A stretch of DNA of 37,585 nucleotides from an uncultured Bacteroidales bacterium (GTDB taxonomy: Bacteria; Bacteroidota; Bacteroidia; Bacteroidales; Paludibacteraceae), in contig CAMHOK010000005.1 in the NCBI GenBank assembly GCA_946186735.1, positions 1 to 37,585 of the forward strand, in the 5' to 3' direction. A model generated the notes under the pieces. The model did no database searches. It worked only from the letters and a program-made list of their open reading frames with translations, and was not told the DNA's origin. Below are positions 12,734-37,585 of this stretch, piece after piece. Positions within the stretch are counted from its first letter, which is position 1; each line of letters starts with the position of its first letter. The translations under genes and the position numbers were made by a program.

Positions 12734-12937
12734 ATGCTATTGAACGAAAACCCCTACGGGGTATATTTTGTAATTGTACTCGTTATGCTATTGAACGAAA
12801 ACCCCTACGGGGTATATTTTGTAATTGTACTCGTTATGCTATTGAACGAAAACCCCTACGGGGTATATTTTGTGCTTGTACTCGTTATGCTATTGAACGA
12901 AGACCCCTATGGGGTATATTATGTGCTTGTACTCGTC
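12734..12937. repeat. Tandem array, 4 x 51 bp, ATGCTATTGAACGAAAACCCCTACGGGGTATATTTTGTAATTGTACTCGTT
   Basis: Units start at 12734, 12785, 12836 and 12887. The core is the same family as 2234-2251 and 2287-2304. Confidence 0.95.
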
Positions 12938-13050
12938 ATTCTGCCCTTGCCGGCAAAGCGAGGGCTGTGAGGGTTATGACAAGGAAAATATGAAATAGCA
13001 ACGAATTGTTTTTCATGATGTTTTCTGTTTTTTTATTTGCGGTTATTATT

Positions 13051-13210
13051 TTTCTCGGAGTTTCTCGGAGTAGATCGGAGTAGCTCGGAGGATCTCGGAT
13101 GATCTCGGAGGATCTTGGAGTGGATCGGAGTAGCTCGGAGTGGCTCGGAGTGGCTCGGAGTGGCTCGGGGTGGCTCGGAGTGGATCGGAGGGGCTCGGAG
13201 TGGATCGGAG
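13051..13210. repeat. Decanucleotide array (tggCTCGGAG)n, 16 units
   Basis: Perfect 10-bp register across 160 bp, with CTCGGAG/ATCGGAG cores. Confidence 0.95.
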
Positions 13211-13216
13211 GTGTTT

Positions 13217-13783
13217 TTAGTATCCTCTGGCGCGGCGGCGGGCAGAGGACATTTCCTCTTTAATGCCACCATTCTCAATAAATTCTTTTTTCTTGCGCTC
13301 TATCAGTCCCTCAATCATCGGGAAATACTGATGGATGAGAGTAAGAGCTATATTGGCTATTGTTTCGTCGCTGCGCGTAAGTATTGCCTCTTGATAATCT
13401 TTGGCATCGCTATGCTTCAAACAATATTTTTTTGTTTGCAGGCTCCTTGGGTCAGTAGCAGACCAATGTTCTAACCCCCTCGTCAATAAGTAATCTTCGT
13501 AGTCGGCTTTCAACTCATGTATGCTGCCGCGTGCAGTGTTGAGAAGCTTGATCTGCATCTCCTTAGAGGTATCGCCATCCACACTGCCTTCAGCAATATT
13601 TTGTTTTCCGCTCCGTGCCGCCTGTATCATCTGGTCGATTGTTCTGTCGCCCTTCACAAAAAACTTATTGGCAAAGAAATAAGTAATAGCGTAGATACAG
13701 TTCGCAATCTTATACACTTTCAACCGCTCATAGCGATTACCGGTAAGAGGAATGAAACTACTATCTTGGTTATTATCGCTCAT
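13217..13783 (-). CDS. Four-helix-bundle protein (23S rRNA intervening-sequence protein-like)
   Basis: YERLKVYKIANCIYAITYFFANKFFVKGDRTIDQMIQAARSGKQNIAEGS...TSKEMQIKLLNTARGSIHELKADYEDYL is the characteristic pattern of this family. Confidence 0.85.
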   Translation of the reverse strand: MSDNNQDSSFIPLTGNRYERLKVYKIANCIYAITYFFANKFFVKGDRTIDQMIQAARSGKQNIAEGSVDGDTSKEMQIKLLNTARGSIHELKADYEDYLLTRGLEHWSATDPRSLQTKKYCLKHSDAKDYQEAILTRSDETIANIALTLIHQYFPMIEGLIERKKKEFIENGGIKEEMSSARRRARGY

Positions 13784-13810
13784 AAATGATATTAGATTAA
13801 TTTATTTATT

Positions 13811-13860
13811 TTTCTCGGAGTGGCTCGGAGAATCTCGGAGAAACTCGGAGGGGCTCGGAG
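13811..13860. repeat. Second decanucleotide array (CTCGGAG core), 5 units
   Basis: Same 10-bp register and same left flank (TTATTTTTCTCGGAG) as the 13051-13210 array. Confidence 0.95.
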
Positions 13861-13868
13861 TTGTTTTT

Positions 13869-13921
13869 AAATACTGATGGATGAGAGTAAGAGCTATATT
13901 GGCTATTGTTTCGTCGCTGCG
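13869..13921 (-). pseudogene. 53-bp exact duplicate of an internal segment near the 3' end of the four-helix-bundle gene
   Basis: AAATACTGATGGATGAGAGTAAGAGCTATATTGGCTATTGTTTCGTCGCTGCG is identical at 13323-13375 and 13869-13921. Confidence 0.95.
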
Positions 13922-25753: not shown

Positions 25754-26038
25754 ATTCGTGTTATTCGTGTTATTCGTACAGATAAATAAGAATAAAATAA
25801 ATTAGTAAAGTGTTATTCGTGTTATTCGTACAGATAAATAAGAATAAAATAGATTAGTAAAGTGATATTCGTGTTATTCGTACAGATAAATAAGAATAAA
25901 ACAGATTAGTAAAGTGATATTCGTGATATTCGTGTTATTCGTACAGATAAATAAGAATAAAACAGATTAGTAAAGTGATATTCGTGATATTCGTGTTATT
26001 CGTACAGATAAATTAGAATAAAATAGATCCGTATAAAG
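25754..26038. repeat. Nested minisatellite: five ~52-61-bp units, each with 2-3 copies of a 9-mer (GKTATTCGT) plus ACAGATAAATAAGAATAAAAYAGATTAGTAAAGT
   Basis: Direct reading. Units vary in 9-mer number. Confidence 0.95.
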
Positions 26039-28535: not shown

Positions 28536-28551
28536 TTATCTGTCTTTTCTA

Positions 28552-28669
28552 CCACCCCTTACCCCTCCTTATCATAGAGGGGAGTTTCTGCCACCCCTTA
28601 CCCCTCCTTATCATGGAGGGGAGTCTTTGTCACCCCTTACCCCTCCTTATCATGGAGGGGAGTCTCTGC
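28552..28669. repeat. Three tandem ~39-40-bp hairpin repeats CCACCCCTTACCCCTCCTTATCATGGAGGGGAGTCTCTG
   Basis: Direct reading; each unit contains CCCCTCC-TTATCAT-GGAGGGG (first copy has one stem mismatch). Confidence 0.95.
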
Positions 28670-28672
28670 CAC

Positions 28673-29941
28673 CTACTCCACCTTAAAGCCTGAGAAGAGG
28701 CATGAGCCGCTTATTATCTTCAGCTCGATGGTGTGTTGTCCTTTCTTGAGTGAGAGAGCAGAGGAAGCCTCGGTCCACTCGGTAGTGCTGCCGTTCCTGC
28801 TCATCTCTACATGTGTCATGGTCTTGGAGTCAACCACCACCTCGCATATAGTGTTCGAGTAGCCGCAATAGCGCAGAGTGATGGTGGAGGTGTTTTCCGG
28901 AACGGAGAGTTGGTAGGTGAGCGAATGTCCTTCTCTGAAGTTGGTGGACATCAGTCCGTTGCTGCCGGCAAGAGTGATGGCTTGTTGATCGGTGGTGGGG
29001 CGCAGGGTCATAGCACCGTCAGAGATACCTATATACTCGCCTGCATGTATGAAGCGTGACGAGAGCAGCCATGCCGACTTGTCGAAAGACGAGAACAGAC
29101 AATAGATCTGTCCGAGCTCAGTGAGAGCGGCAGGTGAGTCGTGCGTGAGCAGTTGCATATACGGGTGCAAATCGACTTTAGCGCTTGAGCGCGGTATGAA
29201 CCATGAATAGCGTTCCACCTTGTCGTTCTGCTCAAGATAGTTGAGCATAGAGGTCATGTAGCTCTTCTGCGACTCGAGCGAGGTGCTGTTTTCCCATGCG
29301 CAGAACTCGGTGAGCCAGATAGGCTTGTTGTACTTATAAAACATCTCCACGAAGCCTTGTGCTGCCGAAGCCGAGCCCATGTAGCAGTGGATAGAGATAG
29401 CATCAACATCATCGATCGACACCTCGGGTTGTTGGAAGAACTCGTCGAGCCATTTGATAGGGTCGCCATAGCCGGCGAGTGTGCCGTAGTTCATGGCAGG
29501 CGACACGAGCTTGAGTCCGAGCTCTTTGGCAAGACTGACCACGGGTTGCCATATAGCAGCCGCCTCTTTGGGAGTCATGTGAGCCTGGTCGTTGAGGTTA
29601 GGCTCGTTGAAGGCAAGCAGATACTTAGTCTTCGGATGAGCACGCACATACTCGCGTATGCGGTCGGCACTATAGTTGCCGTTCCAGCACATAGGACAGA
29701 AGTCCATGTCGTTGTTGTCGAACCAGAGAGCAGCATTGTCGGTGGCGGTGTTGCCCCAGTTGTAGTCCCACGATATATACGGCGAGAGCAACGGCAGGTC
29801 ATCTACACGGGTGAAAGAGAAAGCCACACCGCGCTTGCCCGACTTGTGCATAGTGGCGGCAGCAGAGCCTTGCAAGGAAGGAGAGTCGCCGCAGGAGACA
29901 AGGACAAGCGACAGAACGATAACGACGAGATACTTATGCAT
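28673..29941 (-). CDS. GH128-like beta-1,3-glucanase lipoprotein with C-terminal CBM6/35-like domain
   Basis: Lipobox VLVSCG. KRGVAFSF...ISWDYNWG...LLAFNEPNLNDQAHMTP...ISIHCYMG...IWLTEFCAW match the GH128 (Glyco_hydro_cc) pattern. Confidence 0.8.
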   Translation of the reverse strand: MHKYLVVIVLSLVLVSCGDSPSLQGSAAATMHKSGKRGVAFSFTRVDDLPLLSPYISWDYNWGNTATDNAALWFDNNDMDFCPMCWNGNYSADRIREYVRAHPKTKYLLAFNEPNLNDQAHMTPKEAAAIWQPVVSLAKELGLKLVSPAMNYGTLAGYGDPIKWLDEFFQQPEVSIDDVDAISIHCYMGSASAAQGFVEMFYKYNKPIWLTEFCAWENSTSLESQKSYMTSMLNYLEQNDKVERYSWFIPRSSAKVDLHPYMQLLTHDSPAALTELGQIYCLFSSFDKSAWLLSSRFIHAGEYIGISDGAMTLRPTTDQQAITLAGSNGLMSTNFREGHSLTYQLSVPENTSTITLRYCGYSNTICEVVVDSKTMTHVEMSRNGSTTEWTEASSALSLKKGQHTIELKIISGSCLFSGFKVE

Positions 29942-37277: not shown

Positions 37278-37361
37278 ATTGACGAAATTTTCTTTTTTTG
37301 TTGCAATTATTTATAGGGTAAGAAATCAACATACTGACTACTAAACAACGGAGTATTAGTT

Positions 37362-37450
37362 TTTTTACCGCAGAGTCTTGGCTTATTTTACCGCAGAGTC
37401 TATTCTTTTTTAACCGCAGAGTCTATTCTTTTTTTAACCGCAGATTTAGC
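37362..37450. repeat. Four degenerate repeats TTTTACCGCAGAGTCTATTC / AACCGCAGATTTAGCAGATTT
   Basis: Direct reading; spacing about 24-26 bp. Confidence 0.85.
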
Positions 37451-37530: not shown

Positions 37531-37585
37531 CAGATGATGATAATGGAATTTCACTCAGATGATGATAATGGAATTTCACTCAGAT
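37531..37585. repeat. Perfect 25-bp tandem repeat CAGATGATGATAATGGAATTTCACT (2 copies plus 5 bp, cut by window end)
   Basis: 37531-37555 identical to 37556-37580. Confidence 0.95.

Follow-up and report, generated by a model that had tools for sequence, protein, structure and literature searches.

We analysed a 37,585-nucleotide stretch of DNA from an uncultured Bacteroidales bacterium (hereafter, the window). Between its GH81 gene and a gene for a 1948-aa protein lies a short gene encoding a four-helix-bundle protein, in the order array, gene, array and 53-bp gene remnant:

13046-13053: left edge TTATTTTT of the 3'-side array
13054-13213: 3'-side array, 16 decamers CTCGGAGNNN (NNNCTCCGAG on the gene strand), mismatches concentrated in the linker (p = 0.0015)
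13212-13219: right edge TGTTTTTA of the 3'-side array, containing the gene's stop codon (TTA on the plus strand)
13217-13783, minus strand: 188-aa four-helix-bundle gene with a C-terminal suffix domain (TIGR04258, TIGR02436)
13226-13369, minus strand: part of the gene that encodes the TIGR04258 suffix domain (aa 139-186)
13323-13375, minus strand: intragenic origin of the 53-bp duplicate
13806-13813: left edge TTATTTTT of the 5'-side array, identical to the left edge of the 3'-side array
13814-13863: 5'-side array, 5 decamers CTCGGAGNNN, beginning 30 bp before the ATG, mismatches again in the linker (p = 0.01)
13862-13869: right edge TGTTTTTA of the 5'-side array, directly abutting the gene fragment
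13869-13921, minus strand: exact 53-bp copy on the far side of the 5'-side array, the remains of a second copy

The window protein is a TIGR02436/TIGR04258 four-helix-bundle ('23S rRNA-IVP-like') protein. It matches the NCBIfam profiles TIGR04258 (E = 1.5e-16, 60 bits against a cut-off of 40) and TIGR02436 (E = 2.3e-7, 31 bits against a cut-off of 24), and the kinship with rRNA intervening-sequence genes proposed in an initial annotation of this DNA is borne out in that the protein is IVP-like. The match to Pfam 23S_rRNA_IVP (PF05635; E = 3.1e-7, 31.0 bits) falls below the gathering score of 33.8, which short relatives pass easily. An AlphaFold2 monomer model is all-helical (pLDDT 92.5, pTM 0.87). 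Its nearest solved folds in Foldseek are 2gsc (XCC0516) and 2rld (BT_0352, S23 family), with weak E-values that amount to a family-level fold match. The best matches of the protein in Pfam, NCBIfam and Foldseek are IVP/S23 relatives only, with no Y1 tyrosine transposase. PADLOC models do not match the gene as an anti-phage defence gene, and carriage by phages is unlikely, since viral contigs contained a single relative. The four-helix gene is the only ORF between the two arrays, where no transposase ORF is present, and the unit as a whole encodes no transposase, nuclease or reverse transcriptase.

The same genome encodes a second TIGR04258 gene (contig C23 of genome G000, about 13.3-13.8 kb; loci L001 and L012), which has an in-frame TAG break and no flanking array. 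Among homologs, suffix genes at L013, L020, L021, L027, L044 and L118 lie within apparent type I restriction-modification operons, adjoining hsdM, hsdS or hsdR as judged from sequence. At L019, L022-L024, L026, L028, L036, L104, L127 and other loci, the protein continues past the suffix domain into a coiled-coil-like C-terminal extension.

Both window arrays are in perfect register but imperfect in sequence, each unit combining a core CTCGGAG with a variable NNN. The window contains 21 copies of CTCGGAG (5.2 ± 2.0 expected), 14 of them inside the arrays, and a search of the 2.13-Mb assembly for a triple-unit CTCGGAG pattern found none outside this locus. When the two arrays are taken jointly, substitutions fall preferentially on the three linker bases (p = 0.0005), and 48 of 108 other arrays likewise have uneven substitution columns (p ≤ 0.05). 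A conserved core with a variable linker argues against plain slippage and is what a binding site in each unit would give.

The 53-bp piece matches the gene exactly, extends on neither side and leaves 9 bp between its end and the GH81 stop. The initial annotation had described this piece, the 16- and 5-unit register and the shared array edges, all of which we confirmed. It had also concluded that the array and the 3' end of the gene were duplicated together as a unit, which we did not find: the arrays are the two flanks of one gene, and the 53-bp piece is internal to the gene (codons ~137-154) and fused to the array edge rather than being a contiguous gene 3' end. Because arrays on both sides are common in the family, two arrays are in themselves no evidence of duplication; the 53-bp fragment alone is. 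Nineteen GH81 relatives (about 45-52% identical) lack the four-helix gene, and since their next gene also differs, the GH81 locus provides no clean empty-site test.

Arrays at homologous genes

Homologs were gathered within the genus and order of the window genome and from 80 named contigs (at least 567 relatives in that collection), yielding 135 distinct suffix-type loci. Scored by their best 36-bp periodicity (threshold 24), 47% of 5' flanks and 56% of 3' flanks are periodic, compared with 8% and 12% for control genes from the same loci; many of the loci are metagenome-assembled, and array calls on divergent repeats are approximate. At least one flank is periodic in 73% of loci (18% of controls) and both flanks in 30% (2.6% of controls). 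Clear two-sided arrays are thus limited to about 30% of loci, and decay and one-sided arrays are common. The 5' neighbour is co-directional in 96 of 106 loci, as against 138 of 197 controls.

Periods at Bacteroidales suffix-type loci are almost exclusively 9, 8 or 10 bp. The words vary by locus (TTAGACCAA, GACCTTAAA, CTAGTNNN, GCCTAAATAT, CATGCCCAT and others), and the two sides of a gene mostly carry the same word or its reverse complement. The initial annotation had proposed looking for CTCGGAG decamers around homologs and would have counted a consistent lack of decamer flanks against a linked gene and repeat. Such flanks are indeed lacking in the letter, but not in substance, because word and period are particular to each lineage. 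Its argument that the array is non-coding, since 10 is no multiple of three, holds for the window and fails for period-9 relatives that read their arrays in frame. At L020, L068-L096, L133, L140 and L147, the 9-bp arrays encode repeated tripeptides (e.g., NGQ, PIK, NNQ) at four-helix protein ends. At L104, L116, L120, L123, L125 and L136, a 9-bp array downstream of the gene apparently reads in frame into the signal peptide of a lipoprotein-like gene that follows, as though co-opted as a hydrophobic leader. At L106, identical 29-bp terminator-like hairpins (CGAGCCTCGGTCGCAATGACCGAGGCTCG) border the array-gene-array unit at its two outer ends.

To compare the two sides of each gene, we located genes by profile and aligned the 160 bp preceding each gene with the 160 bp following it in a simple local alignment (threshold score 36). 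The window gene scores 58. Flanks were alike at 50 of 134 suffix-type loci, 11 of 30 loci with short TIGR02436 genes of the window's genus and 7 of the 11 plasmid loci that were scored, compared with 6 of 280 controls (Fisher p from 1e-21 to 2e-8). Arrays of the short genes are mostly of 7 bp and often inverted. Inverted pairs were confined to target genes (7 of 11 plasmid, 10 suffix-type and 6 short-type loci), and at L079, L126 and L128 the flank is itself an inverted pair with a shared loop.

The plasmid loci were found by tblastn with a consensus-like hand-written bait (ends from L249, middle from general family knowledge), and the loci themselves were read from their own records. They comprise short four-helix genes between arrays on cyanobacterial, Riemerella and Gemmatirosa plasmids, with all passing pairs inverted. 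Three cyanobacterial examples are:

Nostoc edaphicum: GGGAGTA x n before the gene, TACTCCC x n after it
Anabaena sp. 90: AGGTGAC before the gene, GTCACCT after it
Nostoc C052: GGGAACA before the gene, TGTTCCC after it

These heptamers look like known cyanobacterial short tandem repeats. On the Anabaena sp. 90 plasmid pANA02 (L278), the short gene with its inverted AGGTGAC arrays is located in a type I-D CRISPR-Cas locus, with cas6 on one side and cas4 on the other.

Several observations connect array type to the protein rather than to the site. First, 379 of 418 locus pairs with at least 70% protein identity have no neighbouring sequence in common on either side. Second, array period changes 7 times on the protein tree, against a mean of 16.3 and a minimum of 13 in 200 shuffles, and all eleven period-8 loci fall inside one clade of twelve. 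Finally, among loci without shared flanks, repeat-word similarity rises from 0.50 at 30-45% protein identity to 0.72 at 85-100% (Spearman 0.40, reached in 0 of 300 permutations), with relatedness handled in these statistics by the tree and the exclusion of shared flanks only. On the tree the window gene is closest to L087 and L071, whose 9-bp words (TCTNAGA-NN and CTCAGAG-NN) by eye have a similar core and a linker one base shorter. The gene family is linked to the repeats, and array period and word are lineage-specific and travel with the protein to unrelated sites.

The end of nqrF allows a partial comparison of occupied and empty sites. Two genomes carry a terminator, array, gene and array there, and two others share this terminator but have no gene and no array. 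Homology ends within about 10 bp of the array and covers the left side alone, so this is not a full empty site. Some genomes have an array at nqrF without the gene. In four genomes of the genus (L171, L178, L180 and L184), solo CTAG arrays begin at the nqrF stop codon, before the terminator; they are absent from others. Comparison of the nqrF and GH81 relatives revealed no empty site that matches an insertion on both sides, and in the absence of such a site these comparisons showed no target-site duplication. Several loci are syntenic between species and are old insertions; at one such pair (L097/L101) the arrays differ.

Dispersed arrays

Arrays also occur away from four-helix genes. We identified up to 267 matches per genome in the genus to the pattern CTAG-N4..6-CTAG-N4..6-CTAG, compared with few for a reversed control pattern. 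Genomes with a TIGR04258 gene have a median of 26 matches and genomes without one a median of 3 (Mann-Whitney p = 4e-4, uncorrected for relatedness). The period of solo CTAG arrays is genome-specific; in several genomes it equals that of the resident gene and in others it is mixed. Counts of 8/9/10-bp CTAG matches, the gene's own flanks included, are:

Two genomes with an octamer gene: 53/1/0 and 42/1/1
Two genomes with a nonamer gene: 0/225/12 and 11/47/0
One genome with a decamer gene: 0/9/17

Some near-complete genomes have many CTAG arrays and no TIGR04258 gene, such as one of 98% completeness (G048) with 24 octamer and 11 nonamer matches. Array-rich genomes without TIGR04258 contain short four-helix genes, whose arrays differ from these in period and word. 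Most of the solo arrays sampled are no more than tens of bases from the stop codon of a neighbouring gene, and dispersed arrays are mainly found between co-directional genes.

The window contains two solo arrays of types found at other four-helix genes of the same genome:

1595-1781: 16-bp TAAGACCGCTGCGCTG, then 7-bp AGAACAA x20, the type of the L289 flanks (contig C83)
2509-2578: 16-bp CTAACAGCGCAGCGGT x4.4, the type of the array after L290 (contig C42)

L289 and L290 are the genome's other two intact four-helix genes and are flanked by AGAACAA and CTAACA..GGT, respectively. The array at 1595-1781 aligns with the L289 flanks with scores of 45 (inverted) and 36 (direct), against shuffled maxima of 24 and 23. 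The array at 2509-2578 has a 55-bp gap-free match to the L290 array, with a score of 60 against a shuffled maximum of 19. Both lie in the 3' regions of neighbouring genes. Dispersed copies of a gene-flanking repeat are thus found for CTAG in relatives of the genus and for AGAACAA and CTAACA..GGT in this genome, but not for CTCGGAG.

The window also contains intergenic arrays of longer period at 12734-12936 (51 bp), 25758-26028 (52/61 bp), 28548-28673 (39 bp), 37360-37444 (23 bp), 2077-2178 (26 bp) and 37531-37585 (25 bp). Those compared with four-helix gene flanks showed no convincing tie to them.

A candidate mobile module and alternative readings

We favour, with modest confidence, the reading that the array, four-helix gene and array of the window together form a single copy of a module, widespread and either mobile or self-spreading, whose protein acts on its cognate arrays. 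The initial annotation had proposed a mobile or self-amplifying module. Its occurrence at unrelated loci is observed; self-amplification, array binding and movement by the protein are what we infer from the sequence patterns. The four-helix protein, probably oligomeric given that its relative 2gsc was solved with five chains, would bind the core motif that recurs in its own arrays, on either the DNA or the transcript, and the arrays would serve as its cis sites or ends. Since the protein has no recognisable nuclease, we invoke host enzymes, which together with it would copy the array, or array and gene, to new sites, with a preference for positions immediately 3' of a co-directional gene. In that case, solo arrays may be non-autonomous copies, as REPs are to RAYT genes. 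The window would hold one module between the GH81 and 1948-aa genes, with the 53-bp remnant left from a second copy.

Several observations count against this module: the lack of a transposase, nuclease or reverse transcriptase, of a two-sided empty site and of a target-site duplication; arrays in genomes without TIGR04258; the restriction of two-sided arrays to some 30% of loci; old syntenic loci; the mismatch at L097/L101; and the broken, array-less copy on contig C23.

A rather unlikely alternative is that the protein is a sequence-specific transcriptional or post-transcriptional regulator. The arrays at its own gene would then be autoregulatory and the dispersed arrays would be its sites in 3' or intergenic regions of other operons, with the word changing along with protein specificity. 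The placement of dispersed arrays, mainly just past stop codons between co-directional genes, agrees with this proposal, and the core and linker pattern would suit binding sites. Most heptamer arrays are transcribed (Rehm 2015, PMC4692102), and a post-transcriptional regulator has been proposed for TAACTGA heptamers, with S1, Csp and Csr proteins as the only candidates named (MacGregor 2015, PMC4679880). A regulon does not, however, readily account for gene and array at non-homologous sites even among close relatives, for a decayed second copy in the window, for a second gene copy without arrays or for arrays gained and lost at nqrF between species. A regulatory role of the same array binding may coexist with mobility.

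Less probable still, the arrays could be an independent, slippage-prone feature into which the gene preferentially inserts, splitting one array into matching flanks. Gene-less arrays are common, including those at nqrF, as this reading would predict. Yet period and word track the protein lineage rather than the site, the two nqrF genomes without the gene also lack the array, and the inverted pairs at plasmid, suffix-type and short-type loci cannot have originated from one split array.

We regard as very improbable an RNA element resembling the rRNA intervening sequences, in which the two arrays pair in the transcript, the ORF is enclosed in the stem and the protein binds that stem. The family is named after the 23S rRNA IVS, inverted arrays occur in the short family, and folding and pairing are stronger for the window arrays than for mononucleotide-shuffled sequences (duplex at -34.6 kcal/mol, against -21.2 ± 4.1 for the shuffles); a stem may thus form in the window and between inverted arrays. 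We nonetheless rejected universal palindromic units or an ORF-enclosing stem as a general explanation, keeping it as a minor rival: unit self-complementarity exceeds that of shuffles only slightly, entire groups such as CCCATAAA show none, and many suffix-type loci have direct, non-palindromic arrays.

That the arrays are plain slippage repeats unconnected to the gene is scarcely credible: the window does hold several other tandem arrays, of longer period, but enrichment over control genes, the same word up- and downstream, co-variation with the protein and the conserved core with its free linker refute this reading, unless these tests share an unseen bias.

Relation to known systems

Short dispersed tandem repeats have been known for decades in cyanobacteria and other bacteria, with their source unexplained, and S23/IVP four-helix proteins are common proteins with solved structures and an unexplained function. 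A repeat word and period that track the protein tree provide the repeats with a candidate protein partner. If the module model is true, it would represent an unusual mobile element without a recognisable recombinase, and its natural pairs of protein and DNA word would be a possible source for reading a recognition code. The protein family and the repeats are known; the combination of a four-helix gene with dispersed tandem arrays that are cognate and lineage-specific appears to be new, in that we found it in no described class in our incomplete coverage of the literature.

The window protein shares sequence family and fold with TIGR04258/TIGR02436 (PF05635, S23; 2gsc XCC0516 and 2rld BT_0352). 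Those families are defined by the protein alone, and no definition that we found includes cognate flanking arrays. The rRNA IVS with an S23 ORF resembles the module in having a homologous ORF enclosed by repeats and no transposase. It differs in lying within rRNA and forming one stem, whereas the window module lies between protein-coding genes and has tandem arrays with lineage-specific words. The DGR accessory protein bAvd has the fold family in common, and the short cyanobacterial protein of L277 matches PF22296 at E = 1.5e-8, below the gathering score; the four-helix gene neighbourhoods viewed contain no reverse transcriptase or template repeat.

The short tandem repeats themselves (the STRRs of Calothrix, GGGAATC/GGGGATT (PMC4692102) and TAACTGA (PMC4679880)) resemble the arrays described here in their short period, intergenic and often post-stop position, frequent inverted pairs and patchy distribution across phyla. 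GGGAATC and GGGGATT heptamers in Xanthomonas and Nostoc are intergenic, lie near stop codons, form many inverted pairs and generally show no association with mobile elements (Rehm et al., 2015; PMC4692102). TAACTGA heptamers occur in Beggiatoaceae, cyanobacteria and Bacteroidetes, and horizontal transmission was suggested for them, 'but no mechanism is evident' (MacGregor, 2015; PMC4679880). The main texts of both papers are without S23 or four-helix proteins, and we found no published link between short tandem repeats and the S23/IVP family in the open-licence literature, beyond which a report may exist. Neither paper names a four-helix gene for its repeats, whereas the arrays here are tied to one and have periods of 7 to 10 (and 16) bp. 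Short-type four-helix loci have mostly 7-bp tandem arrays as in the STRR/heptamer repeats, and solo arrays agree with these repeats in position; the window unit is 10 bp. We tentatively raise the possibility, which we would not yet call probable, that dispersed short tandem repeats (cyanobacterial STRRs and the Xanthomonas, Beggiatoaceae and Bacteroidetes heptamers) are non-autonomous copies spread by IVP/S23 proteins, a transposase-free mobile class in which the proteins of each lineage recognise and spread a word and period of their own.

REP/RAYT systems (REPtrons) share with the array-gene module a repeat-flanked gene, many dispersed non-autonomous copies and a repeat type matched to the gene lineage. 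RAYTs are Y1 tyrosine transposases and REPs are single palindromes. Here, the protein is a four-helix bundle without a known catalytic site and the repeats are tandem arrays. The module would work like REP/RAYT but lacks the defining Y1 transposase, and we therefore place it outside that class.
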